Source: a virus. Taken from it: 25,531 bases of DNA. The stretch spans positions 1-25,531 of the IMG/VR virus record IMGVR_UViG_3300027805_000081; one strand, 5' to 3'. Numbering within the stretch: position 1 is the stretch's first letter; each line of letters begins with the position of its first letter. Shown here in pieces: positions 2,615 through 25,531 of this stretch. Below the pieces are notes generated by a model. The model was given only the letters and a program-made list of their open reading frames with translations, was not told where the DNA came from and searched no databases. Position numbers and translations under genes: made by a program.

Positions 2615-2664
2615 GAGCATAATGAAAATTATGCAGAATTATTAACGTGCTCAAGGAGGAAACT

Positions 2665-3207
2665 ATGGACCCACTATTTCAAATTTACACTAAGATGGGT
2701 GAGATTGAAACAAAGGTAGCTGATAGCATATTTGAAAATTATAAACTGAGCGTCGCTCAAACAAATGATATCAATAACCGCGCAATGCAAACTGCATTCC
2801 ACACGGACGCAACGCTTGCCGCTATAAAACAGACAGTTAATGATGCAAATACGCAGAATCTACTAGCGTTTGAGCGCTTAAATTCTGCAGTTCAGCTAGC
2901 AGCTGCTCACACTAATGAAGTGGTAATGAATGAAGGTGGCGCAACTCGTGCTCTCATCGGATCCATCGATCGTGAGAATCTAAATCGTCAACTAACTGAT
3001 CGTGCGACTGAAATCGTTGCTCTAAGAGAAGGATTCCGCGGCTGGGAAAGAGATTGGGGTCGTCTAAATGGCGCGGTCCAATCTGCTAACGTAGCTAGCC
3101 AAATCGCTGCTCTAGGAAGCCAACTTCAAAGCGCAAGGCAAGGCGTAATCAATACTGGTACATTTACTGGTAATACGCAAACACAGACGCCTACTAACAT
3201 TGGTTAA
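2665..3207 (+). CDS. Late structural-type protein, first copy of tandem pair
   Basis: 180 residues; family not recognised. The ATG at 2665 is chosen because AAGGAGG (2653-2659) lies 5 bases upstream; a longer reading from GTG 2647 would run through this site. The protein is mostly helical and rich in Asn, Gln and Ala. Segments FENYKLSVAQTNDINNRAMQ and GSIDRENLNRQLTDRATEI are also present in the next gene, with about four fifths identity overall by eye and no gaps. It ends with TGNTQTQTPTNIG, a terminal motif also found, diverged, in the protein at 4562. As the first gene after the late promoter, it is probably a virion component or an appendage assembly factor. Confidence 0.85.
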   Translation: MDPLFQIYTKMGEIETKVADSIFENYKLSVAQTNDINNRAMQTAFHTDATLAAIKQTVNDANTQNLLAFERLNSAVQLAAAHTNEVVMNEGGATRALIGSIDRENLNRQLTDRATEIVALREGFRGWERDWGRLNGAVQSANVASQIAALGSQLQSARQGVINTGTFTGNTQTQTPTNIG

Positions 3208-3218
3208 GGAGAAACATC

Positions 3219-3803
3219 ATGCCAGAAAATATGACAGGACCAGTTATGCAAACATTCCTAACTGACCCAATGTTTCAGGTCTACACCAAGATGGGTGAGA
3301 TCGAAACAAAGGTATCAGACAGCGTGTTTGAAAACTACAAGCTTCAAGTAGCCCAAACCAACGATATCAACAATCGTGCTATGCAGACAGCTTTCCACAC
3401 AACAGCGGCTCTAGATGCTCTTAAGCAAGCAGTAAATGATGCAAACACGCAGAACCTACTTGCAGCCGAGCGCCTTAAGTCAACAGTTGAACTTTCAGCT
3501 GCACACACAGCTGAAGTTGTTATGCAGGAAGGCGGCCAGACCAATGGTATCATTGGTTCTATTGATCGCGAAAATCTCAACCGTCAGCTAACTGATCGTG
3601 CAACTGAAATCTTTTCACTAAGGGATGGTTATCGTGGTTGGGAAAGAGATTGGAGTGGTCTAAATGGCGCATTCCAGTCAGCTAATGTAGCATCACAAGT
3701 TTCAGCACTAGGAAGTCAGCTTCAAGGAGCCTCACAGGGCTTTCTAAACACTGGAACAGCTACTGGTAATGAGCAAACACAAACGCCTACTAACATTGGC
3801 TAA
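3219..3803 (+). CDS. Late structural-type protein, second copy of tandem pair
   Basis: 194 residues; paralogue of the preceding gene with 14 extra N-terminal residues (MPENMTGPVMQTFL) before the common TDPMFQVYTKMGEIETKV segment. SD AAGGAG lies before ATG 3219. Synonymous positions differ widely between the copies, so the duplication is not recent. The C-terminus ends in the same tail, TGNEQTQTPTNIG. No catalytic motif is seen. The role is presumed structural from the late operon and its fibre neighbours. Confidence 0.85.
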   Translation: MPENMTGPVMQTFLTDPMFQVYTKMGEIETKVSDSVFENYKLQVAQTNDINNRAMQTAFHTTAALDALKQAVNDANTQNLLAAERLKSTVELSAAHTAEVVMQEGGQTNGIIGSIDRENLNRQLTDRATEIFSLRDGYRGWERDWSGLNGAFQSANVASQVSALGSQLQGASQGFLNTGTATGNEQTQTPTNIG

Positions 3804-4813: not shown

Positions 4814-5587
4814 ATGGAAAATGATAGCCTTAATAAAAAATTGCACGACATAAATTCTGCAATTTCATTTTTAAAATATGGGAGAAATAGAGCTGGGTTT
4901 AACCCGCTTGCTGCTAGAGCATTTCAGCTTGCAGCAGCTGCTCTTCAAGATGAAAATAATGATGTTTTATCTATAGACATAGGTTCACCGTGCACCACGG
5001 GGCCTACTGGACCAACTGGACCAACTGGCCCACAAGGTTTGGACGGTCCAACTGGCCCCGTGGGTTTAACCGGTGCAACGGGTGACCCAGGAGTAACAGG
5101 TCCGACTGGACCTTCAGATGGCCCCACTGGTCCCACTGGTCCAACTGGTGATGTGGGTGCAACTGGACCTACAGGTGCAGGTGGATTAGATGGAGTAACT
5201 GGCCCCGCCGGTGCAAATGGATTAGATGGACCCACGGGCCCTATTGGCCCTACTGGATTAGATGGGGTTACAGGTCCGACTGGCGCGGCTGGCTCCCTAA
5301 TTGTTCCGGTAACTAATGTAACAACTACTCCTTATACCATACTGAGCACGGATTACATGCTCGCAATAAATGTTGCAGGTGCAAGTTCTATCGTTCTTCC
5401 ATCTGCACCTTCAACAGGAACAGTTTATATTGTCAAGGATGTATCCGGAAATGCATCAACAAACAATGTCACAGTAACTGTTTCTGGTGGTGCAGTTACT
5501 ATAGATGGAACAAATTCAGCACTCATAAACACTGACTATGGCGCGTTAAACTTTATCTTTAATGGCACAGAATGGAACGTTTACTAA
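4814..5587 (+). CDS. Collagen-like fibre protein with C-terminal beta head
   Basis: 257 residues. Residues 1-60 form a helical N-terminal part with Cys60. Residues 63-161 are about 33 Gly-X-Y triplets, mostly GPT, GLD, GVT and GAT, with one break at Asp102 (GPS-D-GPT). This predicts a trimeric collagen-type triple helix. Residues about 165-257 form a beta-rich head ([32 protein letters not shown]) that recurs in the proteins at 6152 and 6665. Start ATG 4814 has AAAGGTA upstream. Phage collagen-like proteins are usually tail- or capsid-fibre parts; Thr-rich triplets like these are also used in spore surface fibres, but nothing else here suggests that. Confidence 0.85.
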
Positions 5588-8281: not shown

Positions 8282-9250
8282 TCAAACAGCTGTTAGCAGG
8301 TACTCAGCGCGACGCTTCCAGTTATCACCGCCTCGACCAGCCACCTTCGTGACCGAGATCAGAGTGCGGAGGCTGAGCTCGCGGGCTTCGTCCTTCATCT
8401 CGCAGAGGAACTCGAGAGCATTCTGCTTGACAGTCATGTCATACTCGGGAAGGAAGTCGTCACCCTTGATAATGACGCTCATGCGCTCAATCTTTTGCAC
8501 AGTCGTCATCGAGAGATCCACGCAGATCGCACGACTGCGTACTGCCTGATCAACCTTGAAGATGGGAAGGTTCGAGATAAAGATGACACCACCCTTGAAC
8601 TCGAACGATCGAGGCAGATCATCGTCACCGAACGATTCAGCATTCCAGGAAATCACCCGCTTGTCATAGGAATCCAGTGCTCCCTTGAGAAGATTGAGAG
8701 CTACCGGATCGCGGAGAACGCTGTCACAGTCATCAAAGACCACGATGCGGTTGCGATTTTCGTAGAGAGTCCGGTACAGACCCTTCGCGGTAGAGTACCC
8801 CTTGACCACCGTGTAGATCTTGCGAGACTGACTTTCGAAGAGGTTGTCATCATGACCCAGGCCGATAGCATCAGCTGAGTTGATGAGACCTGCATCCTTG
8901 AGTGACTTATTAACGGTGAAGGTCTTGCCAAGACCACCTTCACCGGTTACAAGCAGGGAAGGAGAAGTCCGATCGGCAACCATGTTAACAAAGTCAGTGA
9001 GAAAGTCAAAGCGCTCGTTGATGCCGAAGCGATCTACTTTTTCCGTCTTGCCAGTTTCAGCATTGACCTCAGTGGTTCCGACTTCACGAACATCAGTTAC
9101 ACGCATTTGATTTGCCTTAGTGCAGCGGCCGGCCCTGATATTACCAACCACATATTCCTTGTTGGGAGACGCGGCCAGAATCTTGCCCGCGTGGGTAGCC
9201 GTCCACTTGTTCATCCGAGAATCAAAGGAGAGGATTGCAACGTTCGACAT
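8282..9250 (-). CDS. AAA+ ATPase, early
   Basis: 322 residues. Walker A GEGGLGKT at 103-110, Walker B IVVFDD at 169-174, and a sensor-1-like FISN ending at N227. The C-terminal helices (SLRTLISVTKVAGRGGDNW) resemble an AAA+ lid. The first 80 residues are a small beta-rich domain. The same core occurs in the larger protein at 12053, so these are paralogues. Start ATG 9250 has GAGGAA 6 bases upstream. It is first in the transcript from promoter 3, so it is probably made early. Substrate unknown; remodelling of a nucleoprotein or protein complex would fit the fold. Confidence 0.85.
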   Translation of the reverse strand: MSNVAILSFDSRMNKWTATHAGKILAASPNKEYVVGNIRAGRCTKANQMRVTDVREVGTTEVNAETGKTEKVDRFGINERFDFLTDFVNMVADRTSPSLLVTGEGGLGKTFTVNKSLKDAGLINSADAIGLGHDDNLFESQSRKIYTVVKGYSTAKGLYRTLYENRNRIVVFDDCDSVLRDPVALNLLKGALDSYDKRVISWNAESFGDDDLPRSFEFKGGVIFISNLPIFKVDQAVRSRAICVDLSMTTVQKIERMSVIIKGDDFLPEYDMTVKQNALEFLCEMKDEARELSLRTLISVTKVAGRGGDNWKRRAEYLLTAV

Positions 9251-12052: not shown

Positions 12053-13537
12053 CTAGGCGTATAACTCCACGAGTTTTTCCCAGTTGGGAGCTCCCGATGC
12101 AGCTAAGTTGAGCGCACGAACAAGCTTACGGAGGGAAACATCTCCCTTGCGCTTAGAAGTTTTAACTACCTTCATAACATCTCTGCGCTCTGATGCTGAA
12201 AGTGAAAGACCTTCCTCAAGCTTAATATCATCTAGAATCTTTTCCATGTATTCGAAGAGCTCTTCATCTGTTGGATCAACGTTAATGACGAAAGCACGCG
12301 TGCGAAGAGCACCATCAGGGTCTAGCTTATTAAGAGGTAGATTTGAGATGAAAATAATTCTTCCCTTAAAGTCAAAGAACTTAGGAGCCATGCTCAAATC
12401 ATCTTCATATACTTCAGGATCTTCAGCATCTGGATCAAATATAAACGATGACTTCTTATTCCACACAAGTTTTCTAATTTTCTTTGTGTCAGTTGCTGCT
12501 TTAATAATATTGCGAGCATCTTGATCTGCTAGCGCACCGTCTGAATCGTCGAACACGATGATGTCATTTCTGTGATGATAGAGAAGCGTATACACACCAG
12601 CTGCTGAAGCTGATCCAGTATTCTTAAAATATCCGTTTCCATCTGATAATCCGTGGGATCCCAAAACGTTCTCAACGGTCTGAGTCTTACCAGTACCACC
12701 TTTTCCTGCAACGAACAACGCGTTAAACGCACCCTTAACGATGCCAGTCACTAGTCCTTCTAGGTGCTCAAGAACATCACCATAAGGCACTCTTTCAGAT
12801 GAAGATGATTCTACTTGTTCTTCTTGCTTTGTCTTTAAGTAAACTTCTTTAGTACCGCCGGCCGTTACTTCAATAACTCCTGCTTTAGAAAGAATAGAAT
12901 CCTTTAGCTGATCAATGCTTACGCCTGGCTTAATTGCGATTCTCTTTGCGTCAATTTGAAATTTATCGGCAAAGCTCTTAAAAATAGTGTCAAAGATACC
13001 CACATTAACAATATGATATGTGCCAATAAATTCAGAGCGAGTAAATGTATGCCCCGAAATAAGCTTTTTCATGAAATCATTCAGTGCTTGCTCTGCCGTG
13101 AAATCATCACGCTTTGCTTCCATGACCGCTGATTCTGTTGCTTCTTCAGGATCTACAGGAAATACAGTCATTCTACCTATAGTTGGCGATTTTAAAATAG
13201 TAACGAGTGCGGGTAATGACTTAACTAAAGAAATTCCTTGGGTATGAATGCTGAAAGATGGATCATGTTTTCCATGGAAAACATCTATTGAAGTTATTTC
13301 TGCAGATTTTCCAGCAGATGGTTCTGACTTCCAATTAAATCTAATGCAGTGAGTTGAACCTGAAAAAACATACCTATAACCATATCCATGGGAATCACTA
13401 TTATGAAAATGCTCTACTCCAGGTATCTTGATAAGCTTTACACCTAACTTTTTCTGCAAGAAAGAAATCATCTTTTCCATAGCAAGATGAACCTTAGAAC
13501 TGCTTATCTGTGCTTCAAATAAATCTATTATTTTCAT
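12053..13537 (-). CDS. AAA+ ATPase with long N-terminal domain and putative capsid-targeting peptide
   Basis: 494 residues from ATG 13537; GGGAG lies 8 bases upstream, inside the longer TTG-13552 frame, which is therefore rejected. It starts MKIIDLFE then AQISSSK, matching an L-x-E cleavage site after residue 8. Residues about 10-250 are a mixed alpha/beta region not recognised. Walker A GKGGTGKT is near 278-285, Walker B is IIVFDDSDG, and FISNLP is like sensor 1. The ATPase half is paralogous to the protein at 8282 (KFFDFKGRIIFISNLPLNKL versus SFEFKGGVIFISNLPIFKV). It probably acts late or in the virion, unlike its early paralogue. Confidence 0.8.
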   Translation of the reverse strand: MKIIDLFEAQISSSKVHLAMEKMISFLQKKLGVKLIKIPGVEHFHNSDSHGYGYRYVFSGSTHCIRFNWKSEPSAGKSAEITSIDVFHGKHDPSFSIHTQGISLVKSLPALVTILKSPTIGRMTVFPVDPEEATESAVMEAKRDDFTAEQALNDFMKKLISGHTFTRSEFIGTYHIVNVGIFDTIFKSFADKFQIDAKRIAIKPGVSIDQLKDSILSKAGVIEVTAGGTKEVYLKTKQEEQVESSSSERVPYGDVLEHLEGLVTGIVKGAFNALFVAGKGGTGKTQTVENVLGSHGLSDGNGYFKNTGSASAAGVYTLLYHHRNDIIVFDDSDGALADQDARNIIKAATDTKKIRKLVWNKKSSFIFDPDAEDPEVYEDDLSMAPKFFDFKGRIIFISNLPLNKLDPDGALRTRAFVINVDPTDEELFEYMEKILDDIKLEEGLSLSASERRDVMKVVKTSKRKGDVSLRKLVRALNLAASGAPNWEKLVELYA

Positions 13538-13564
13538 TTTCAGATCTCCCAAGTTTATAGTTTT

Positions 13565-13643: not shown

Positions 13644-15137
13644 TTAAGCCGCAGTTACAGTAGTAGTAGCAGGAATCCTTGTTGCTGCAGAGCTAACTCT
13701 GTTGTTAATAACCGCGTTAGCTGGATTAGTGTTAAGGAAGGTTAGGTAACCATAAATGATTACTGAGCCCGCTACACCCTTAATAGCAAAACCAGAGTTA
13801 GTTGCTGTGGTAGAATGCGCAAAAGTTGTTTCTACTGCAACAAAATACGCACTGGTTGCAACGTCTACTCCATCTCCGTCATTCTGTGTGTTACGGAAAG
13901 AACTACCTCGTACTAGCATCGTGCCACCAGAAGAAACTGATGCTACTTTCGCGCCGCCAGCCTCAAATGACGTATTCGTAAATGTCACATTTGACGCTAA
14001 TCCTAGAATAGCAGCTTGTGCTGTTCCAGAGTATAAGTATGCATCGTCAATCGTACCATACACATTTTGTAGTTCAATAGTATTTTGGTTACCATTATTG
14101 GTTTGAATGTCTACATTTCTCCACCGCATCCTGTTGTTTGGTGAGCCGACGGTAGCATCAAGATCTTGAGCAGTGTTATTCATAACAACACCCTTACCGT
14201 TTGTTGTATAAATCCTAACTCTATCAAGATTAAGCATTCCACTAAATGAACTTCCCGTATATGTAAGAGCATTTTGTCCTGTACCCACATTAAAAAAGAT
14301 GTTTTCAAATGAGAACGGATTATTTCCTGGATGGGCTACTCTTCTTGAGGGAGTAATAGTTACTGGAGTTTGAATAATAGTGCCCCATTCAAAACCAGCA
14401 TATCCAACAAATGCTGTCCTAGGACGTGTTATAGCAAGTGCTTCAGTGTAAGTACCTGGCATAATCAAAACAGTTACACCCTGAGTGGTACTAACATTTG
14501 CTTCAGCATAATCATGCGCCTTCTGAATAGTGGCAAATGGCTTATTAAAAGAACCGTTTCCGGTTGTATCATTGCCATTCTTAGCAACGACAAATATATT
14601 GTTAAGTGTCGGAATATTAGACAGGTCGCTGAAGTTTCCAGACGTTGCCACTGTAGAGAAAGATGGCTTATTATTAACATTAGACCAATCTACAATAATG
14701 TTTCCATCTGGTGTTTTACGAACTGGTCCATCGATGCTACCAGTTACTATTACAGCTTTACCGGTGATAGCTGTAGAAAATCCCAATTCCATCGTGTTTA
14801 CGCCAGTCGTTCTAATTGAATCTGGAATAATAACGTGGTTAGTGCTATCATAAACCATCACTGTTATATCAGTGGTATTCAGATCATGCTGAACATTCCA
14901 CGTTGCTGAACTAGAAGACTGTGTATGAGTATAAGCAGTGAGTTCTCTTGTTAGAGGAGCCCATATGTCAACGGGAGTCGTTGACACGCAAATATACAAA
15001 ACATCTTCTACGAAAGCGATATGGCCTACACCATATGCTGTGGGAAAATTTGGTAACGGTGATACGGTTACATTATCCGAAAGTTCAGCATTTAAGATCC
15101 TGTTATGAACAAGATCAGCCTCTCCATAAAATTTCAT
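13644..15137 (-). CDS. Tail spike with parallel beta-helix domain
   Basis: 497 residues. Residues 1-70 form an N-terminal attachment-type region (MKFYGEADLVHNRILNAEL). Residues about 70-135 are a small beta domain (ATWNVQHDLNTTDITVMVYD). From about residue 180, VAKNGNDTTGNGSFNKPFAT followed by IQKAHDYA opens a parallel beta-helix of the kind found in pectate-lyase-like spikes. It continues with repeated N-rich turns (FENIFFNVG, MRWRNVDIQTNNG, VTFTNTSFEAGG, MLVRGSSFRNT). No catalytic triad is evident, so binding or depolymerase activity is open. SD GGAGG lies 5 bases before ATG 15137. Confidence 0.85.
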   Translation of the reverse strand: MKFYGEADLVHNRILNAELSDNVTVSPLPNFPTAYGVGHIAFVEDVLYICVSTTPVDIWAPLTRELTAYTHTQSSSSATWNVQHDLNTTDITVMVYDSTNHVIIPDSIRTTGVNTMELGFSTAITGKAVIVTGSIDGPVRKTPDGNIIVDWSNVNNKPSFSTVATSGNFSDLSNIPTLNNIFVVAKNGNDTTGNGSFNKPFATIQKAHDYAEANVSTTQGVTVLIMPGTYTEALAITRPRTAFVGYAGFEWGTIIQTPVTITPSRRVAHPGNNPFSFENIFFNVGTGQNALTYTGSSFSGMLNLDRVRIYTTNGKGVVMNNTAQDLDATVGSPNNRMRWRNVDIQTNNGNQNTIELQNVYGTIDDAYLYSGTAQAAILGLASNVTFTNTSFEAGGAKVASVSSGGTMLVRGSSFRNTQNDGDGVDVATSAYFVAVETTFAHSTTATNSGFAIKGVAGSVIIYGYLTFLNTNPANAVINNRVSSAATRIPATTTVTAA

Positions 15138-15161
15138 AGGGCCCTCCGTTTTAGTGAAAGC

Positions 15162-15184
15162 GGGGGTGATTTTAAATCACCCCC
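15162..15184 (-). terminator. Hairpin between small gene and tail spike
   Basis: GGGGGTGATTT pairs perfectly with AAATCACCCCC around a single T. It follows the stop at 15192 on the minus strand. The following GCTTTCAC is only weakly T-rich, so it may be a partial terminator or an mRNA processing element ahead of the spike gene. Confidence 0.55.
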
Positions 15185-15191
15185 AACTCGA

Positions 15192-15491
15192 TCAAGAAGC
15201 TACGCGCTTTGATAGAATTTCTGAAACTGCCTGAAGTCCTTGGCGGTAAACAGCCATTGGCGTTTCTGCATTAACTCGGCGAGCGACGAATTCATTGCTG
15301 ATAACAGCACCATTAGCGGTGACAGAGTAGACTGGACGAATTGTCTTGCGGCCAGCCTTAATCTTTCCACTGAATGCTAGAGTTCCATTTTGGAGCTGGC
15401 GCTCTGTAGAAACTAGCTTTAGGCCAGCAGCTAGAAGTGACTGATATTGCTTGGTGCGCTGAACTGCAGCGAGTGTCTTTGAAGTAGTCAT
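15192..15491 (-). CDS. Small hypothetical protein
   Basis: 99 residues, basic; SD AGGAGAT lies 7 bases before ATG 15491. It has an N-terminal helix (SKTLAAVQRTKQYQSLLAAG), a beta-rich centre (GTLAFSGKIKAGRKTIRPVY, then SVTANGAVISNE) and a C-terminal helix (YRQGLQAVSEILSKRV). It is flanked by hairpins on both sides, so it may be a separate transcript. No family is recognised. Confidence 0.75.
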   Translation of the reverse strand: MTTSKTLAAVQRTKQYQSLLAAGLKLVSTERQLQNGTLAFSGKIKAGRKTIRPVYSVTANGAVISNEFVARRVNAETPMAVYRQGLQAVSEILSKRVAS

Positions 15492-15514
15492 TTGTATTAT
15501 CTCCTATACAACAA

Positions 15515-15542
15515 AAAATGCTAAGAGAACTTGTTCTCTTAG
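15515..15542 (-). terminator. Intrinsic terminator after the MazG-like gene
   Basis: CTAAGAGAAC (15521-15530) pairs perfectly with 15533-15542. On the minus strand it is followed by GCATTTTTTG. A second hairpin (15544-15562, TTGAGAC/GTCTCAA) overlaps the stop codon of the gene at 15559 just before it. Confidence 0.8.
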
Positions 15543-15558
15543 TTTGAGACACCATGTC

Positions 15559-16008
15559 TCAATCCTTAAGTGCCCTAGGTAGTAAACCTACATTATCATG
15601 ATGAGAAGGTGCTGTCCATCCCTCTGGCTTAATTAGATCTGGAAATCCATATGGGTTTGGCCTTCCTGGCTTTACGCCCGGTTGCTTAACCATGTTTGCG
15701 CAATGAACTTTATTCCATGCGGTGTAAGCATCAATATTAAAGGCATCTAACGTTCCTATTGCAAAAACGATGCAATCAATTAGTGCGTCTACGACACCAT
15801 CTGCATCTTTGTCAGCGAATGCCTTATGGGCTTCTGATACTTCTTCTTGAACCATGTCCAAGCGGAATTTTAGATAAGACTTAAGCTGCTCATTGCTTAG
15901 CCCCTGCACGACCTCATTCACCTTGAACTTAGTATGCATGTCTTGGATATCGGCGGGCCAAAAAGTTGGATCAGTTGTGTTTTGCATTTGTGTTTGATCG
16001 TTTGACAT
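15559..16008 (-). CDS. MazG-like all-alpha NTP pyrophosphatase
   Basis: 149 residues. EEVSE at 55-59 and DALID at 74-78 are the EExxE and ExxD/DxxxD metal-binding helices of the MazG/dimeric dUTPase superfamily. W and NM residues after them (AWNKVHCANMVKQPG) resemble phage MazG-like proteins, as do the C-terminal KPGRPNPYGFPDL residues. The family hydrolyses (d)NTPs to the monophosphate plus pyrophosphate. In phages it is thought to clear unwanted nucleotides or alarmones. It closes the nucleotide and DNA-modification cluster, with the terminator just beyond. Confidence 0.82.
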   Translation of the reverse strand: MSNDQTQMQNTTDPTFWPADIQDMHTKFKVNEVVQGLSNEQLKSYLKFRLDMVQEEVSEAHKAFADKDADGVVDALIDCIVFAIGTLDAFNIDAYTAWNKVHCANMVKQPGVKPGRPNPYGFPDLIKPEGWTAPSHHDNVGLLPRALKD

Positions 16009-16043: not shown

Positions 16044-16700
16044 TCATCTTCCTGAAATTTTCTTGATGTCTTCAAGAATAATATTCAGATTATTTTCTGG
16101 TAAATCAACACCAAAAAGTACTCTATCCCACTGCACAGAAGCAAACCAATTTTTTTCTTCTGTATACATGCTCACGAGCCTATCAATATGGCTAAATAAA
16201 GTCTTCTCTATTGTATTTGATTGTTTACCCATTCTTTTTAGATTCGCGTGTGCTTCTGAAGCAGTAGTAACATCTGATAGAATGCGTTTCTTAAATCTTT
16301 CAAGCCTAACATCCATGTCGGTATGAATGTAGTACTTAAGGTGAATAGCCCCGGCATCCAACGCAGGCTTAACATAATTATCTATGCCAGATGGTTCAAC
16401 AATCAGGAATGCAACACCATGAGAAAGCTTCTGTTGAAATTCATCCTTTGTGACACCATATCGAATGCCACGATAAGTAGCAAGCTCTGCAAACTGATCG
16501 CTCTTTTCAAGAGCTTTAGAGAAGTCTTCATCGATGAAGTAATAGTCAACTCCTTCTTCTTCTCCCATTCTTGGCTGCCGCGTTGTTGTAGATATAAGAC
16601 ATGGCAGTTTAGCCACATCTCTAATGTAATTAAAAAGATATGATTTTCCTGCGCAAGATGGTGCGGTTAATGTTACTAGAACTGGTTTGCTATTAGCCAT
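16044..16700 (-). CDS. Guanylate-kinase-like nucleotide kinase
   Basis: 218 residues. The P-loop is APSCAGKS at 13-20 (K19), an acceptable variant of GxSGxGKS. TTTRQPRMGEEEGVDYYF at 38-55 is the guanylate kinase GMP-binding signature (TTRxPRxGExxGxDYxF). VAFLIVEPSG fits the usual strand with Asp replaced by Glu or Pro. The enzyme family makes GDP from GMP using ATP. The start overlaps the end of the NTP transferase gene by 25 bases, so the two are coupled. It may recycle GMP or dGMP for replication, or serve the neighbouring NTP transferase and YvcK/CofD-like protein. Confidence 0.82.
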   Translation of the reverse strand: MANSKPVLVTLTAPSCAGKSYLFNYIRDVAKLPCLISTTTRQPRMGEEEGVDYYFIDEDFSKALEKSDQFAELATYRGIRYGVTKDEFQQKLSHGVAFLIVEPSGIDNYVKPALDAGAIHLKYYIHTDMDVRLERFKKRILSDVTTASEAHANLKRMGKQSNTIEKTLFSHIDRLVSMYTEEKNWFASVQWDRVLFGVDLPENNLNIILEDIKKISGR

Positions 16701-17479
16701 TTTTGCTTTATCTCCTCTTGAATCAGTGCAACTTCTTCTGGTGTGTTGAAGCTCCTGGTTGGGTAATCAGTTTCATACACCTGAGCTGGCCGCTCGGTGT
16801 TGTGCAATATATGAAATGCATGAAGAAGAGAAAGCTCTCCTCCAGGGGTTATATATCTCCCATTCTTCCAAAAACACGTATGTAAGTTGAACAGGGCATT
16901 GAGAATAACTTTTTTATCAAATCTAAAAATAGATTGATCATGGAATCCTGATGGATGATTTTCTCCATATTTTGAAAAATCTGCAGACATGCACGACATA
17001 TGCTCATCCACCAAAAGTGTAACATAAGGATTATCCTTACGTACAGCAGGAATGAATCCTGAGATATGATTTCCTGCATACCTCTTACTAAGTAATTCAT
17101 CAACCGTTTGGCAAAAAGGCAGAAAAACATCACCCCAGCAAATAACTATATCATCGCTAACTACTGAATAATCAGTAGCTCTTTTAAGCCCCCGCATAAC
17201 GGCATGCCCATCTCCTAGGCCAGATTTAATTGGCACAAAGTAAACACGCGTGTTATCAATTAGAGTTGGAAATAATTTTTCTGTTTCCCTTCTATATTGA
17301 TCCCACTGTTCAGTAATCAGTTCATTTATGATAATAAAAATATTATTAAATTTGTGTCCAATTTGCTGCAGCGTTGTAGTTAAGTTTGGTATGTCTGTAA
17401 TAGGAACTAGGGCCTTAGGGATATTTCCGCCCATCCTTGATCCCTTACCTGCGGCAATAATAAAAAGATCAGTATTCAT
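16676..17479 (-). CDS. GT-A-fold NTP transferase (sugar or phospho-ligand nucleotidyltransferase)
   Basis: 267 residues. IIAAGKGSRMGGNIPKALVP at 7-26 is the nucleotide-binding signature of the GlmU/RmlA/MobA/CofC superfamily, with the Lys in PKALVP. The metal-binding Asp is probably in ICWGDVF. The end (SFNTPEEVALIQEEI) is typical of sugar-phosphate nucleotidyltransferases. It would join an NTP to a phosphorylated ligand, releasing pyrophosphate. The ligand is unknown: glucose-1-phosphate for UDP-glucose supply, another sugar, or a CofC-like phospho-acid. It overlaps the upstream gene by 11 bases and the downstream kinase by 25. Confidence 0.8.
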   Translation of the reverse strand: MNTDLFIIAAGKGSRMGGNIPKALVPITDIPNLTTTLQQIGHKFNNIFIIINELITEQWDQYRRETEKLFPTLIDNTRVYFVPIKSGLGDGHAVMRGLKRATDYSVVSDDIVICWGDVFLPFCQTVDELLSKRYAGNHISGFIPAVRKDNPYVTLLVDEHMSCMSADFSKYGENHPSGFHDQSIFRFDKKVILNALFNLHTCFWKNGRYITPGGELSLLHAFHILHNTERPAQVYETDYPTRSFNTPEEVALIQEEIKQKWLIANQF

Positions 17480-19322
17480 TTTTTGAGTGAATTACGGTTG
17501 TTAGGAAAAATGCAGTTTCTGCTGGATCCCTCACTTTCAAGCACTTTACTCTGTCATCATTCAGCTGAGCAACAGGCCAATCATTTCCAGTTTCAAGTTC
17601 ATCACCAACATATGTAATAGATTTTACCCTGCTTTTAAGTACGTGTTTAACTGCATCCTGCTTTGATAGCACCCGATTATGTATCTCAATAGTTGTTCTA
17701 CCTGTTGGTTTAACAACTAGGGTGTTGAGCTGCAATTTTTCAAGAACGTGCTTTATTAGATTGATAGCAATTTCCCTGTATTCTTCATTGATTGGTTTGA
17801 TACAGATCATTGCATTGCCACGATTCTCTATCTTAGAGTATTGAAATCCGCTTTCTAGTAAATTCTTGATGATTAGATTAGCGGTATCATAATCAATTAA
17901 GCATGATTCATTGATACATCTAACGAAGTTTGGTTTAACACCATCATCAGAATCCAGATGACTTAGGGTATTATATGAATACTCATTAATACCACCATCA
18001 GCATAAACTGTTAGTGGTTTAACTGCGTCAGTTCCCCAAGTATTGAAACCTAGACTATATTGAATCCTAAGAGATACTGCCTTGATGCTGTTTCCAGTGC
18101 ATACTGAGACGCTTGATCTATTCTTTAGCTCACAAAGCATTTTCTTGTTTAGCTCAGATGCCTTTTTCTGGTAGTTACCCCTACCAACCAAAGTATCATC
18201 ATAGTCAAACATGAAGTGCGCACTGTCTAGATAATCTAGAAAGTACGCTCTAGAAATTGCTTTAAAAAGATCTTCAGGCTCATGCTTTGATGATTCATTA
18301 TAGCTTTTGAATGTCGTGACCGATTTGAGAAGAGCGGACGCACTTTCGTCAATTACAGACATCTGTGGGTGGCCACCTACATCTACAACAAGATTAACTC
18401 TTTTCTCACTGAAGTATTTAGGAACAATCAGTCGCACAATGTCGCTTGCTGTCTGCCCGGGTGAATCTTTATCTGGTTCACGATTCATCACCATTATGAC
18501 CTTTGCCTTACTTTGCTGAACTGCTTCTCTGAAGCCAATTGATGCATAGGTTGGAATTAGCGATGACCACTGCGTGCCAGATGAAAGGATTATAAGGTCA
18601 GCATCTAGAATAGCTGCCCGCGCTTCGTGACAAAGAATAGGTCTAACTTCATTTCCTGCTGAATCTACGAAGAACACATCAACGAAGGGATCATCCATAT
18701 TTCCCCAAGAGACGATGTCACCTTCATCTGTTACTCGCGCCCCACTTTTGGTAATAGCCCCAAGGAACATGGACGTATCATCATTAATGATTACATTATC
18801 ATTGATCCCCATTAGGTTAGCCATAATTCTAGCTGCCTCTCTCATAGAGTTTCTATTTGCACTAGCAAATCCAGCATAGATGATGTTAGCTAAAGAAAAG
18901 TCCGTGTAGTCAATCTTCGTCGCTACCGGTATAGAGAAGAACGTTTCAACGGCTTCTTTTAGAAGTGTCATCTTCTCTAGTGCACTTTCTAATCCAAGTT
19001 TATCTCCCAATTCATCAATTGCTTTGATGCAGAAGCCCTGTGCCTTGGATGATTCGCTCGTGAAACGAATATCCAAAAATTTATTCCAAGGTGACAAAGG
19101 ATTCTCTAACTTTAGCCGCGTCGTTTGATTTTTACGAACATCTGATGGTCCTAGAATTTTACCATCACACACCTTGCGCACAGCGCCGGTGCTTAGGCCA
19201 TTATCATATGCGTTAACTATGACCTTGGTGTTAATCCCGTCAATAGGGTTATCGAGCAGATTGTATAGCCCTGTTTGGAGCGCTATTGATCCGGTTCCAC
19301 CTGCCAATATAACTATATTCAT
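17469..19322 (-). CDS. YvcK/CofD-like domain fused to a HAD phosphatase
   Basis: 617 residues in two parts. Residues 1-340: LAGGTGS at 6-12, NAYDNGLSTGAVRK at 37-50, LGPSDVRK at 57-64, LANIIYAGF around 144-152 and LSSGTQWSSLIP at 246-257 follow the YvcK/CofD order (GGGTG, DDGGSSGRLR, PPGDIRN, HSLGNLLLAG, GPGSLYTSIIP). Residues 365-617: FDYDDTLVG at 372-380, CTGNS at 408-412, ADGGINEY and GDELETGND at 573-581 are HAD motifs of the Cof/phosphomannomutase type. CofD transfers a phospho-ligand from a guanosine diphosphate carrier to an alcohol; YvcK binds UDP-sugars. The fusion's reaction is unknown. It lies directly downstream of the DNA beta-glucosyltransferase. Confidence 0.8.
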   Translation of the reverse strand: MNIVILAGGTGSIALQTGLYNLLDNPIDGINTKVIVNAYDNGLSTGAVRKVCDGKILGPSDVRKNQTTRLKLENPLSPWNKFLDIRFTSESSKAQGFCIKAIDELGDKLGLESALEKMTLLKEAVETFFSIPVATKIDYTDFSLANIIYAGFASANRNSMREAARIMANLMGINDNVIINDDTSMFLGAITKSGARVTDEGDIVSWGNMDDPFVDVFFVDSAGNEVRPILCHEARAAILDADLIILSSGTQWSSLIPTYASIGFREAVQQSKAKVIMVMNREPDKDSPGQTASDIVRLIVPKYFSEKRVNLVVDVGGHPQMSVIDESASALLKSVTTFKSYNESSKHEPEDLFKAISRAYFLDYLDSAHFMFDYDDTLVGRGNYQKKASELNKKMLCELKNRSSVSVCTGNSIKAVSLRIQYSLGFNTWGTDAVKPLTVYADGGINEYSYNTLSHLDSDDGVKPNFVRCINESCLIDYDTANLIIKNLLESGFQYSKIENRGNAMICIKPINEEYREIAINLIKHVLEKLQLNTLVVKPTGRTTIEIHNRVLSKQDAVKHVLKSRVKSITYVGDELETGNDWPVAQLNDDRVKCLKVRDPAETAFFLTTVIHSKNEY

Positions 19323-19335
19323 AATTGTCTCCTAT

Positions 19336-19362
19336 AAAACGCCCTAGTTCCGGGCCCGTTTT
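19336..19362 (-). other. Intercistronic hairpin after the glucosyltransferase gene
   Basis: AAAACG and CGTTTT pair across the gap, with CCC/GGG inside and a 2-base bulge. The stem overlaps the stop codon region of the glucosyltransferase and ends just before the AGGAGA ribosome site of the YvcK/CofD-like gene. It could attenuate transcription or set the relative expression of the two genes. Confidence 0.35.
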
Positions 19363-20485
19363 ATTTACGGGATTCTGATAGATCTTTAATCAGATTTACG
19401 AATGATTCACAGTACGCTTTAGAATCAAATCCTACTGCTTTTATTTGATCCTGTAGAATTTGCTTTCTTATAGTGGGATCATTTTTCAACAGTTGAATTT
19501 TTTCTGATAATTCTTGCCTATCATTTACATAGAGAAAATCTGCGAGATTTTTATCAACGCCATAAACACGCCTAAGTTTGTCCATATCAGCATCAACAAA
19601 AGTAATAACCGAAGACCAGATACTTTCATATAGTCTTTGCGGAATATCATTGATCTGCTCATACCAAGGATCTCCTATGACACAGTGAGCCATAGCCCTG
19701 TTCATTTTAGGCAGCATCTCATCATATTTTACGGGCCCAGTAAATATCGGTGGCCGAGGAGACGAGAATTTCACGAGATCAAAATCTTCTTGAGAAATTT
19801 TGCCAAACATCTCAACTGTAATATCATCCGGGTGTCCAAAGTAATACTTAATCATCTTCTTTTCACGCTTACCACCGCGCATAGTCCCACCATATGATAG
19901 GTCAACCTCAGGAGTGGAATTAAAGGGAATCCGTGAATTCAGACATGGAAACTTTTCAAATGGAAAGTGCACAATCTTAGAAGGGATTACTTCATTCTTC
20001 TTTAGATCACCAAGAACCTTCTCAACATCATATGGCTGAGAAACATAGATGATGTCTTTGCGAGTGATGCCAAGCATCTGCTCTGTCCAATTGCTAGCCC
20101 ATGACTTCTTAGATACAGAGGGCCATACTTGCTTCAATGTGAGCTCTGGATCACATAGTAGGTAAAACACTGGTCCATAGAAGTTATTGATTATCTTGTA
20201 ATTTAATAGTTGCTCTTTATCTTCAGCACCACCAAAAAAGTTCACGTTGCCGTTTAGAACCACAAGAGCGTCAAACGCACCAAGCATCATGTGATCTTCT
20301 TCAATGTTATGCCAATGGTAATCAGCAACTAAGTTGTCCTTCTTCAGAATTTTCGTAAAGATGTGAACATCAGCGCCACCAAGCTTAAGCATCTTGCAGA
20401 TGCTTCTCGCTTCACCATTAGCACCAGAGGTATCGTTTGCATTAAACGAAATTCTTGATCCAAGCTTAATAACTGCTACTTTCAT
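19361..20485 (-). CDS. bgt: DNA beta-glucosyltransferase (hydroxymethylcytosine)
   Basis: 374 residues, close to the 351 of T4 BGT, and alignable along its length. Shared landmarks: N-terminal MKVAVIKLGS, NFFGG at 82-86, FYLLCDPEL with D112 at the place of the T4 catalytic Asp100, YGGTMRGGKRE at 198-208 (T4 YGGSFRSGQRE, UDP-contacting Arg residues kept), PPIFTG at 245-250, VIGD at 269-272, and E287 in QRLYESI at the place of T4 Glu272. T4 BGT transfers glucose from UDP-glucose to 5-hydroxymethylcytosine in DNA, protecting it from nucleases. Start ATG 20485 overlaps the kinase TGA (ATGA). With the hydroxymethylase at 24978 this indicates glucosylated hmC DNA. Confidence 0.9.
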   Translation of the reverse strand: MKVAVIKLGSRISFNANDTSGANGEARSICKMLKLGGADVHIFTKILKKDNLVADYHWHNIEEDHMMLGAFDALVVLNGNVNFFGGAEDKEQLLNYKIINNFYGPVFYLLCDPELTLKQVWPSVSKKSWASNWTEQMLGITRKDIIYVSQPYDVEKVLGDLKKNEVIPSKIVHFPFEKFPCLNSRIPFNSTPEVDLSYGGTMRGGKREKKMIKYYFGHPDDITVEMFGKISQEDFDLVKFSSPRPPIFTGPVKYDEMLPKMNRAMAHCVIGDPWYEQINDIPQRLYESIWSSVITFVDADMDKLRRVYGVDKNLADFLYVNDRQELSEKIQLLKNDPTIRKQILQDQIKAVGFDSKAYCESFVNLIKDLSESRK

Positions 20486-21033
20486 GATATTGCTTCTTCC
20501 AAAATATCCTCAGTACATCTAAAGTTCCCATCTTCACTGGTCACACAGATAATTTTCTTATCCTTGATGATTGACTTGTTGAAAGCTTCTATGAATAGGT
20601 TCTGCTCTTCCTTTCTCTTTGATGCATCAAATGATTCTCCATCATCAACAAAGTGCGTGCTGATATCAAAGTTTTCTGTGAGAAGAATCATCCTAACATG
20701 ATCAAGACGACTAAAAGCAGCATAGCTACGCTCAAGATCAAAAACATAGGAACCAGAATAACCACGATAAATGGGTGCGTAAACCATTTCTCCAAGGTGC
20801 GCACGATCAAGTATAATACGTGCATCTGAATTTAATATGTTGAACATGCTTCTGAACGCAGCAATTTGATACATCTTTTTAGAATCTGTACCATATTGAT
20901 GTTCATAGCATTCAAGAACCTTTGGCTTTTGGTAATGGATTACCTGGAAATATCCTAGTCTGTTCTGGATGCCTTCAATTAGTGTTGACTTCCCAAGACG
21001 ATCAATTCCCTCGATAATAAAAGATCTACGCAT
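20482..21033 (-). CDS. Deoxynucleoside monophosphate kinase (thymidylate-kinase-like)
   Basis: 183 residues from ATG 21033, preceded by GAGG 6 bases upstream; a longer frame would overlap the previous gene. IIEGIDRLGKST at 6-17 is the P-loop of the thymidylate kinase family (FIxxEGxDGxGKST). ILDRAHLGEMVY is the DRxxxSxxVY region. A lid segment with DASKRKEEQN follows. T4 uses a dNMP kinase (gp1) to phosphorylate hydroxymethyl-dCMP. This protein is not obviously gp1 but could do the same job, or act on dTMP. It is coupled to bgt by ATGA. Confidence 0.8.
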   Translation of the reverse strand: MRRSFIIEGIDRLGKSTLIEGIQNRLGYFQVIHYQKPKVLECYEHQYGTDSKKMYQIAAFRSMFNILNSDARIILDRAHLGEMVYAPIYRGYSGSYVFDLERSYAAFSRLDHVRMILLTENFDISTHFVDDGESFDASKRKEEQNLFIEAFNKSIIKDKKIICVTSEDGNFRCTEDILEEAIS

Positions 21034-21034
21034 G

Positions 21035-21289
21035 TTAAACCTCGAAGACTGCTTCATCTCCATCAAGAGTAAGAATCTGGTTTCCGTTATATCCATCAAC
21101 GGTTATAGTTAATTCTACTTCAGTATAACATGAATTAAAGAGCTCACTGTCAATATTTTCAAACTCACTGCATAGATCAAATGCCGCATCTGAAAAGCGC
21201 GTGTTTGCTCCTAGACGTACCTGTGACAATAATCTTCCTAGCAATAAAAACTGGTCTTCATTTAGATCAATTTGATATGTGTTACTCAT
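21035..21289 (-). CDS. Small hypothetical acidic protein
   Basis: 84 residues. An N-terminal helix (LNEDQFLLLGRLLSQVRLG) is followed by a C-terminal beta section (EVELTITVDGYNGNQILTLD). Its ATG lies within the end of the AbrB-like gene, and its stop is 1 base from the kinase start, so the three are tightly coupled. Function unknown. Confidence 0.75.
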   Translation of the reverse strand: MSNTYQIDLNEDQFLLLGRLLSQVRLGANTRFSDAAFDLCSEFENIDSELFNSCYTEVELTITVDGYNGNQILTLDGDEAVFEV

Positions 21290-23225: not shown

Positions 23226-24011
23226 ATGTTTAACGATTCTAAATATACTCGCTGGTATTTTTCAATCATATGTAATCCAGATACTGTGTCTTATACTGAG
23301 AAACATCATATTATTCCCAAATCTATTGGTGGATCGGATGAAGAATCAAACATAATCGCAGTTTCTCTTCGTCAGCACTATGTTCTTCATTTACTTTTAC
23401 CCAAAATGGTAAAGAATAAAACTCACAAAAACAAAATGTTATTTGCTCTTAGATGTATGCTTAATTTTAACAAACTTTCTAGAAGATATAAACCATCATC
23501 TCGAATTATTGAACATCTTAAAAAAGCCATTCGAGAAACTCCAATTTCTAGTCATCATTCAGACAATATTAGAAAGGGTCAACTTGGAAAAACTTTAAGT
23601 CAAGAACATAAAACGGCAATTTCAAAGGGATTGCTGGGTAAAAAGCATACTGTTGAAACTTTAGAAAAAATGTCACGTGCTCAAAAAAGACGGATATTAT
23701 CCCCAGATCATAAAAATAAAATTAGTCAAACCAGAAAAGGCAAAGGTCTGAGTTCTGAACACAAAAATAAGATTTCAACTAGTCTTTTAGGAAAAAAACG
23801 ATCTGAAGTATCAAAAATCAATTCTAGTAATGGGCAGCAAAAATATGTTTACACATTAATTTCTCCAAATGGAGAAATCTGCACCACATCTAATCTTAAA
23901 GAATGGTGCAGTATCATGAATATGCCATATTCATCATTTTCTGAAATATCTAGAATTGGTGGATCTACAAAAAATGAATGGAAGGTTTTTAGAAAAAGAA
24001 AAGCTGTTTAA
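23226..24011 (+). CDS. HNH homing endonuclease with NUMOD3-like repeats
   Basis: 261 residues, the only plus-strand gene in a minus-strand region. HHIIPKSIGG at 27-36 with N42, H51 and H55 is the HNH motif. Residues about 110-185 contain repeated NUMOD3-type DNA-binding units (GKTLSQEHKTAISKGLLGKK, then HTVETLEKMSRAQKR, LSPDHKNKISQTRKGKG). The C-terminus (YTLISPNGEICTTSNLKEW) resembles a NUMOD1-type helix-turn-helix. SD TTGGAG lies before ATG 23226. It is AT-rich, inserted between a helicase 5' remnant and the helicase gene, and is probably a free-standing mobile gene whose target lies in the helicase gene. Confidence 0.88.
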   Translation: MFNDSKYTRWYFSIICNPDTVSYTEKHHIIPKSIGGSDEESNIIAVSLRQHYVLHLLLPKMVKNKTHKNKMLFALRCMLNFNKLSRRYKPSSRIIEHLKKAIRETPISSHHSDNIRKGQLGKTLSQEHKTAISKGLLGKKHTVETLEKMSRAQKRRILSPDHKNKISQTRKGKGLSSEHKNKISTSLLGKKRSEVSKINSSNGQQKYVYTLISPNGEICTTSNLKEWCSIMNMPYSSFSEISRIGGSTKNEWKVFRKRKAV

Positions 24012-24756: not shown

Positions 24757-24981
24757 CTATTTTGGTTCATCTAAGAGGTGAATTACGCCTGGAGATCTGT
24801 CGGTATAATAATCATCATCTTCTACGGCTGTCACGTAGACTTCATCGAGCGTCTGTGCAAATTTTGGGTGTGTAGTATCTGTCTTAATAAGAGTGCAGCA
24901 CGTTTCATCCCCTTGCTTTTTGCGATCTAGCTTGCTAAGTAGGGTTAGAAGATTTCTTCTTGAAAGGTAGATTTTGTTCAT
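24757..24981 (-). CDS. Conserved small phage protein
   Basis: 74 residues (MNKIYLSRRNLLTLLSKLDR, then GDETCCTLIKTDTTHPKFAQ, then VYVTAVEDDDYYTDR). I recognise the pattern as a widespread uncharacterised phage family often found near replication and nucleotide genes. The ATG overlaps the TGA of the hydroxymethylase gene (ATGA), so it is translationally coupled. Function unknown. Confidence 0.82.
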   Translation of the reverse strand: MNKIYLSRRNLLTLLSKLDRKKQGDETCCTLIKTDTTHPKFAQTLDEVYVTAVEDDDYYTDRSPGVIHLLDEPK

Positions 24982-25531
24982 GCTTGCTTAGGATAATTTA
25001 CTGGATCAACTAGATGATAGTGACGAGCGTACACGTGCAGAGATCCAACCTGCCACATAATATTTCCAACAGGAAGTTCTAGATCTGCAGCCAGCTTTGA
25101 TAATACGTGGTGCTGCCACGCTCTATCATTTTTGTAACCGAACACTGCATCATTAGAGCGCATTTGAACTACCGCATTAAGTGATCCGTTTCGGATTAGA
25201 TATTGAACGGCATTGGTGCACATGAAATCAGAGCGACCATTCTTGTTGTAGTCTAGCCACATAGATGGCCTAGTGTAGATCATGATAGCTCGACGAGATT
25301 CTGGGTTCTTCTTTAGTTCTTTTCTAGCAAACTTATACTGATTAAAGAATGACCCGTCATCTTGTACTTTGACATCAGCGGGATTAGCAACAGTATTATC
25401 TGCAGAGTAGATGCACCAACCATAGTTTGAGTTGATGAATCCATCCTTATCAGCAACTGCCTTCCAGATTTGCGGTGCACCACCAGGAATATCATTCACG
25501 TTGAGAGACATGGAGTTATACCATTCTTCTT
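24978..25531 (-). CDS. 42: dCMP hydroxymethylase (T4 gp42-like), 5' end outside window
   Basis: A thymidylate-synthase-fold enzyme that converts dCMP to 5-hydroxymethyl-dCMP using methylene-tetrahydrofolate. The frame stays open to the right edge (EEWYNS before the Met at 25511, matching T4 ELEWYKS), so that Met is internal and the gene continues beyond 25531. Segments matching T4 gp42: NDIPGGAPQIW, INSNYGW, IMIYTRPSMWLDYNKNGRSD, FMCTNAVQYLIRNG (catalytic Cys), MRSNDAVFGYKNDRAWQ, MWQVGSLHVYARH. The C-terminus is shorter than in T4 by about 15 residues. It is the upstream step for the beta-glucosyltransferase at 19361. Confidence 0.93.
   Translation of the reverse strand, partial: EEWYNSMSLNVNDIPGGAPQIWKAVADKDGFINSNYGWCIYSADNTVANPADVKVQDDGSFFNQYKFARKELKKNPESRRAIMIYTRPSMWLDYNKNGRSDFMCTNAVQYLIRNGSLNAVVQMRSNDAVFGYKNDRAWQHHVLSKLAADLELPVGNIMWQVGSLHVYARHYHLVDPVNYPKQA

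Follow-up and report, generated by a model that had tools for sequence, protein, structure and literature searches.

Results

The cassette and its surroundings

The window, a 25.5 kb virus record (25,531 nucleotides), carries on its minus strand four closely packed genes. The cassette starts with a gene for a DNA beta-glucosyltransferase (BGT; 19361..20485; PF09198, 5e-19; phrog_7922, 7e-56; T4 BGT 1bgt, 6e-36), followed after 38 nt by a gene encoding a fusion of a CofD-superfamily and a HAD domain (CofD-HAD; 17469..19322; PF01933, 3.5e-22 over residues 3-313; HAD-IIB, residues 370-592). The latter overlaps by 11 nt the gene for a putative NTP transferase resembling sugar-1-phosphate nucleotidyltransferases (16676..17479; PF12804, 2e-8), which in turn shares 25 nt with that for a guanylate-kinase-like protein (16044..16700; PF00625, 2.7e-13). 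The flanking genes lie on the same strand. A dNMP (thymidylate-type) kinase, possibly an hmdCMP kinase (20482..21099; phrog_761, 8e-15), overlaps the BGT gene by 4 nt, a dCMP hydroxymethylase-like gene (24978..25529; PF00303, 1.7e-15) has its 5' end cut by the window end, and a gene for a MazG-like pyrophosphohydrolase (15559..16008; PF01503, 1.1e-9), which could remove dCTP in an hmC phage, adjoins the cassette. The identities, places, order and common strand of the four genes are as an initial annotation had claimed, and are borne out by the profile matches and by recurrence of the arrangement in 12 lineages. Relatives are found on contigs of up to 462 kb, and the window phage and its relatives are therefore probably huge phages.

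Several other features were seen in the window. A plus-strand ORF (23226-24011) between the helicase gene and the gene upstream looks like an HNH homing endonuclease with NUMOD3-like repeats; a protein with a long collagen-like GPTGPTGP run (4814-5587) lies inside a plus-strand block of fibre-like genes; and two closely similar ORFs of 186 and 194 aa, with no assigned function, stand in tandem at 2647-3803. Two similar AAA-type ATPases are present (8282-9250 and 12053-13552), the second with an extra N-terminal part, as read by eye. In lineage L001 the homologue of this second ATPase (13948-15915) has its Walker A loop interrupted by an intein-like insert (GKGGC...SHNTGKT) that the window protein lacks. 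Intein-like pieces and homing-endonuclease-like ORFs also seem to split the topoisomerase/gyrase genes of LR756500 (L004, 33150-39559).

Genes for hmC synthesis and glucosylation

The window BGT aligns with T4 BGT along its length, as expected of homology across the whole enzyme, and retains E22, D100, R191, R195, D258, Y261, R269 and E272, residues of functional importance in the T4 enzyme. The T4 UDP-glucose-site residues are present with the exception of K237. The protein is thus predicted to be a T4-type DNA beta-glucosyltransferase, moving glucose from UDP-glucose to hmC DNA. The L001 homologue of the truncated dCMP hydroxymethylase is 52.6% identical to T4 gp42 over 97%, compared to 23-34% for its lower matches, mostly named as thymidylate synthases. 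BGT homologues also occur in nine Enterococcus phage records, i.e. in phages of a Gram-positive host. CofD-HAD was found in a single one of 120 phage records with BGT; since most BGT phages do without the CofD-HAD/NTP-transferase pair, the pair is an addition to glucosylation and no requirement of it.

The CofD-HAD protein

The predicted model of the fusion (pLDDT 90) has a CofD domain at residues 1-361 and a HAD domain at residues 366-615. The former scores 79.4 bits against the CofD superfamily (PF01933; Pfam curated cut-off 30), and stays below the NCBIfam cut-offs both for CofD, 2-phospho-L-lactate transferase (TIGR01819; 13.9 bits, equivalog cut-off 257.45) and for YvcK/GlmR (TIGR01826; 67.8 bits, subfamily cut-off 196). 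The structural comparison with CofC, CofD and YvcK that the initial annotation had proposed, made here on predicted models, placed this domain nearest to YvcK/GlmR (YvcK BH3568, Z 30.9 over 292 residues, 2.3 A), ahead of FbiA (Z 21.2) and CofD (Z 20.1).

Two residues of this domain, D40 and D61, do not vary among 16 phage sequences. They align with YvcK motifs and, by sequence pattern, would fit D45 and D57 of FbiA, which bind the catalytic metal and the GDP beta-phosphate in a reaction that makes a phosphodiester and releases GMP (PMC7253369). Listeria GlmR, on the other hand, converts UTP and GlcNAc-1-phosphate to UDP-GlcNAc, and a triple mutant showed that it depends on D40, D41 and N198 (PMC10128056). 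In the YvcK alignment, with the numbering offset deduced, these positions map to D40, N41 (mostly) and T258 here; two of the three catalytic residues are therefore replaced, which makes uridylyl transfer of the GlmR type less likely.

The HAD domain has the HAD motifs DxDxT, K and GDExxxGND, and D373, D375, T377, K554, G573, E575 and D581 are invariant in the same 16 sequences, D574 nearly so. Profile comparison favours phosphomannomutases and alpha-phosphoglucomutase (7myv, 4e-12; PMM2, 1.5e-8), whereas the fold gives a tie between mutase and phosphatase (PMM1, Z 17.4; trehalose-6-phosphate phosphatase, Z 17.2). Three phages (L015, L017 and L020) lack R501, the residue that lines up with one in the PMM2 cap.

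The NTP transferase and the guanylate-kinase-like protein

The NTP transferase (model pLDDT 92.9) matches GlmU (Z 27.1 over 249 residues, 2.5 A), UDP-glucose pyrophosphorylases and related enzymes at Z 23-27. Its invariant D117 and N245 presumably correspond to the metal-binding D105 and N227 of GlmU, and the protein models as a GlmU-like sugar-1-phosphate nucleotidyltransferase. It had initially been called CofC-type, a label that these matches bear out poorly, although it may still apply: CofC did not appear in the Pfam search, the PDB sequence search or the best 50 structures, where GlmU-type enzymes lead.

The guanylate-kinase-like protein exceeds the Pfam cut-off for PF00625 (50.4 bits, cut-off 25.2) and falls short of that for the guanylate kinase equivalog TIGR03263 (71.3 bits, NCBIfam cut-off 160.45). 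It conserves S37, R41, R44, Y53, E72 and Y81, to which we assign GMP-binding roles by assumption from the yeast enzyme. The initial annotation had it recycling GMP as one of a trio. PF00625 had no match, however, in five whole records bearing the pair (four without BGT, plus lineage L019); an obligatory partnership is thus rejected and the protein is dispensable to the module, an accessory to the CofD-HAD/NTP-transferase core. Guanylate kinases also occur in many phages without the pair.

Recurrence in BGT phages

Scans of IMG/VR and of phage records, followed by gene mapping, yielded 12 distinct huge-phage lineages in which BGT, CofD-HAD and the NTP transferase share a strand, with 29 nt to 6 kb between CofD-HAD and BGT and 33 to 58% identity to the window CofD-HAD. 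This recurrence points to a gene association beyond chance. The dCMP hydroxymethylase is present in 11 of the 12, the contig of the twelfth (L031) being too short to show it; the dNMP kinase is likewise found in 11, as is the guanylate-kinase-like gene, which is lacking in L019 next to a hydroxymethylase, BGT and the pair. In eight of the lineages a MazG-like gene follows the guanylate-kinase-like gene. The order dNMP kinase, BGT, CofD-HAD, NTP transferase, kinase is common to the window and nine close lineages. It is shuffled in LR756500 (L004/L014), where a stretch of about 10 kb contains all the genes, on a single strand, and CofD-HAD has 33% identity. The NTP transferase adjoins CofD-HAD in every phage lineage found, at a distance of 1.2 kb in LR756500. 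The T6 beta-glucosyl-HMC-alpha-glucosyltransferase (TAGT; PF20691), which adds a second glucose to glucosyl-hmC (PMC13216743), was considered as an extra enzyme of these phages and rejected, as none was found in the eight BGT phage records searched.

The pair in phages without BGT

As BGT phages supplied most of the sequences behind the search profiles, other contexts may be under-represented; scanning with only the L015 protein yielded no new relatives. Four phage records, possibly incomplete, have the pair without BGT. TAGT lies directly upstream of the pair in L015 (PF20691, 2.8e-24), flanks it closely on both sides in L017, and is encoded by two genes elsewhere than the pair in L016; in L020 the gene adjoining the pair has a weak glycosyltransferase match. 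Any of three DNA glycosyltransferases occurs in only 111 of 5388 RefSeq phages (PMC13216743), and TAGT in three of four such records is therefore unlikely by chance, by a rough and post hoc estimate. The L015 pair sits inside a block that, read by eye, resembles portal and terminase genes.

Neither a hydroxymethylase of the thymidylate synthase family nor TET was found in these four possibly incomplete records, and TET was accordingly dropped as their source of hydroxymethyl groups; a C5-methyltransferase was rejected as a common partner of the pair, being found only in the L016 record. The tie to hmC as such, as initially conceived, is thus not supported, since TAGT accompanies the pair where BGT, a hydroxymethylase of the thymidylate synthase family and TET all went undetected. 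The initial annotation had also set its proposal against finding all three downstream genes in relatives that lack hmC or glucosyltransferase genes. The strict trio was seen only with BGT; the pair does occur without hmC genes, although three of the four phages concerned have a DNA-type glycosyltransferase and the fourth the adjacent weak match.

Bacterial relatives

One bacterial genome scan returned 69 loci, in 23 of which, mostly from gut Firmicutes, CofD-HAD adjoins an NTP transferase (CofD and HAD are separate ORFs in L062); in most of the others the CofD domain is part of a longer protein. The neighbours at 18 of these 23 pair loci include many GT2, GT8, GT4, epimerase and flippase genes (GT2, 15 of 77; GT8, 7), with a GT2 gene directly in front of CofD-HAD in L057, L061 and L066. 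CofD is fused to GT2 in four of six scanned examples of a distant bacterial group, and the NTP transferase is usually nearby or fused. One polysaccharide locus (L044, 11798-14353) resembles the arabinose region of RB69 in that it has, next to the pair, a HAD gene, a SIS isomerase and an apparent fusion of NTP transferase and kinase. A stand-alone CofD-superfamily protein of 418 aa that shares the STG and SDxRKN motifs was seen in Lachnospiraceae and Clostridium (L077, L079, L081 and L112), with no nearby match to the NTP-transferase profile at these loci.

In trees, phages fall in at least three places among bacteria (the BGT phages, L016, and the L015/L017/L020 group), and transfers of the pair between bacteria and phages have therefore probably occurred more than once. 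Two separate acquisitions by BGT phages, hinted at for LR756500 by the CofD tree, were set aside, since the AU test on the longer alignment did not reject BGT phages as one clade (p 0.42).

Discussion

Our comparison of gene neighbourhoods identifies CofD-HAD and the NTP transferase, and only these two, as the conserved unit. The pair is only rarely without some glycosyltransferase, occurring with BGT, with TAGT, and with GT2 or GT8 neighbours or a GT2 fusion; its glycosyltransferase partner is therefore exchangeable, BGT being the one in the window, and judged by sequence the pair is a module that phages share with bacterial surface-glycan loci. This suggests that the window phage adds a further or unusual sugar group to its DNA. 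That it is a predicted glycosyltransferase-linked modification module is well supported, and the extra pathway tied to DNA glycosylation that had been proposed is matched by recurrent linkage across phages. Both of the roles initially offered, transfer of a phospho-group and provision of a special sugar nucleotide, remain the two best readings, the reaction itself being one that we infer.

The best explanation, which we put somewhat short of an even chance, is that the pair activates a sugar phosphate to an NDP-sugar and that the CofD domain moves the phospho-sugar to glucosyl-hmC. For the substrate, the group transferred, the nucleotide, the CofD-domain reaction and DNA as the acceptor, we infer the following route. 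The phosphomannomutase-like HAD domain would provide a sugar-1-phosphate, which the NTP transferase would convert to the NDP-sugar; the CofD domain would then transfer the sugar-1-phosphate (phospho-X) from it to hmC, either at a hydroxyl of the attached glucose or at that of the base. A phosphodiester would form and NMP would be set free, which the adjacent kinase could recycle if it is GMP. Decoration of the DNA by the pair would thus come after glucosylation. The invariance of D40 and D61, together with the constant presence of the NTP transferase beside CofD in phages, favours such a reaction of the CofD kind, in which the NTP transferase activates the phospho-ligand to be transferred, and we also count in favour of this explanation that BGT phages that only glucosylate do without the module. 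Against it, the CofD domain is nearer to YvcK/GlmR than to CofD (Z 31 versus 20), and the activity shown for GlmR is synthesis of UDP-GlcNAc rather than phospho-ligand transfer (PMC10128056); the HAD fold tie between mutase and phosphatase, the absence of the kinase outside the BGT group and in L019, and the loss of R501 in three phages also count against it. That the final product is glucosyl-hmC with a phosphodiester-linked second sugar or phospho-ligand, made by a CofD-superfamily enzyme that is shared with bacterial surface-glycan loci, is possible and rather doubtful.

The main rival, for which we would allow a real if lesser chance, is that the pair makes an unusual NDP-sugar for BGT or TAGT, replacing or feeding UDP-glucose, with no phosphodiester formed. 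The HAD domain would then be a mutase or phosphatase, the NTP transferase a pyrophosphorylase and the CofD domain a second nucleotidyltransferase or an NDP-sugar-binding part. All three domains do resemble NDP-sugar enzymes, GlmR makes UDP-GlcNAc (PMC10128056), YvcK binds UDP-glucose (PMC5482804), and pairing with any glycosyltransferase would be accounted for. There are precedents in Thanatos TH1_063, a UDP-xylose pyrophosphorylase for cytosine pentose (PMC12838424), and in the NTP-transferase region of RB69, proposed to serve UDP-arabinose (PMC6024577). Two nucleotidyltransferases would be redundant, however, the replacement of GlmR catalytic residues speaks against the second of them, and the BGT retains its UDP-glucose site apart from K237, UDP-glucose normally coming from the host.

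It is unlikely, in our estimation, that the acceptor is instead a virion protein or a host cell-surface glycan and that the place beside BGT reflects shared expression timing. The surface-polysaccharide loci of the bacterial homologues, the portal/terminase-looking surroundings of the L015 pair and the failure to find hydroxymethylating genes in BGT-less phages would agree with this, whereas clustering with BGT and DNA-precursor genes in 12 lineages, and the presence of TAGT, a DNA glycosyltransferase family, in three of the four other phage records, argue against it. We consider it very improbable that CofD-HAD acts like GlmR, as a regulator or accessory enzyme for the sugar-nucleotide pools of the host, with the kinase a plain dGMP kinase for DNA synthesis and no new modification at all. 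GlmR does control UDP-GlcNAc supply in Firmicutes (PMC10128056, PMC7525490), and the guanylate kinases of phages that have no pair fit an ordinary role, but a regulator of host pools would have no need of an attached HAD domain whose catalytic motifs are invariant, or of an NTP transferase and a glycosyltransferase that stay with it throughout unrelated phages and bacteria.

If the phosphodiester reading is true, the decoration of the DNA would be charged and the CofD/YvcK superfamily would gain a new reaction; the hmC tailoring described for T-even-type phages consists of neutral sugars added by glycosyltransferases. This would possibly be a new type of DNA hypermodification acting against restriction and Type IV enzymes. 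If one module accompanies unrelated glycosyltransferases on phage DNA and on bacterial polysaccharides alike, the two would have in common a chemistry for decorating with, or supplying, sugars, and the module would offer a way to learn what CofD/YvcK domains do as enzymes beyond F420 synthesis and GlmR. The open-access literature yielded no paper linking CofD or YvcK with phage DNA modification, and no described phage pathway with this gene set, in agreement with the initial annotation.

Among known systems, T4-type hmC glucosylation (gp42 and BGT) shares with the window a dCMP hydroxymethylase and a BGT with conserved catalytic residues, although T4-type phages lack the CofD-HAD/NTP-transferase pair and use host UDP-glucose. 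The arabinosyl-hmC of RB69 and the pentose of Thanatos likewise involve a phage-encoded sugar nucleotidyltransferase beside DNA glycosylation genes, which the window NTP transferase resembles only remotely. In RB69 this region encodes sugar isomerases and an NTP transferase attached to a kinase-like part, and no CofD or PMM-like HAD. The gentiobiosyl-hmC of T6 is also the product of a second step on glucosyl-hmC, and TAGT co-occurs with the pair in other phages, but there the sugar is added by a GT-A enzyme, of a family not seen in the BGT phage records searched. The two-gene logic of an NTP transferase and a CofD-superfamily protein is that of CofC/CofD (FbiD/FbiA) in F420 synthesis, where CofD makes a phosphodiester and releases GMP; the window proteins differ in a GlmU-like model for the NTP transferase and a CofD domain that has a YvcK-like structure and is joined to a HAD domain. 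Finally, YvcK/GlmR shows the closest fold and sequence motifs, and GlmR is a UTP:GlcNAc-1-P uridyltransferase, whereas the window protein has two of the three GlmR catalytic residues replaced, a HAD fusion, and a separate NTP transferase at its side in every phage lineage found.
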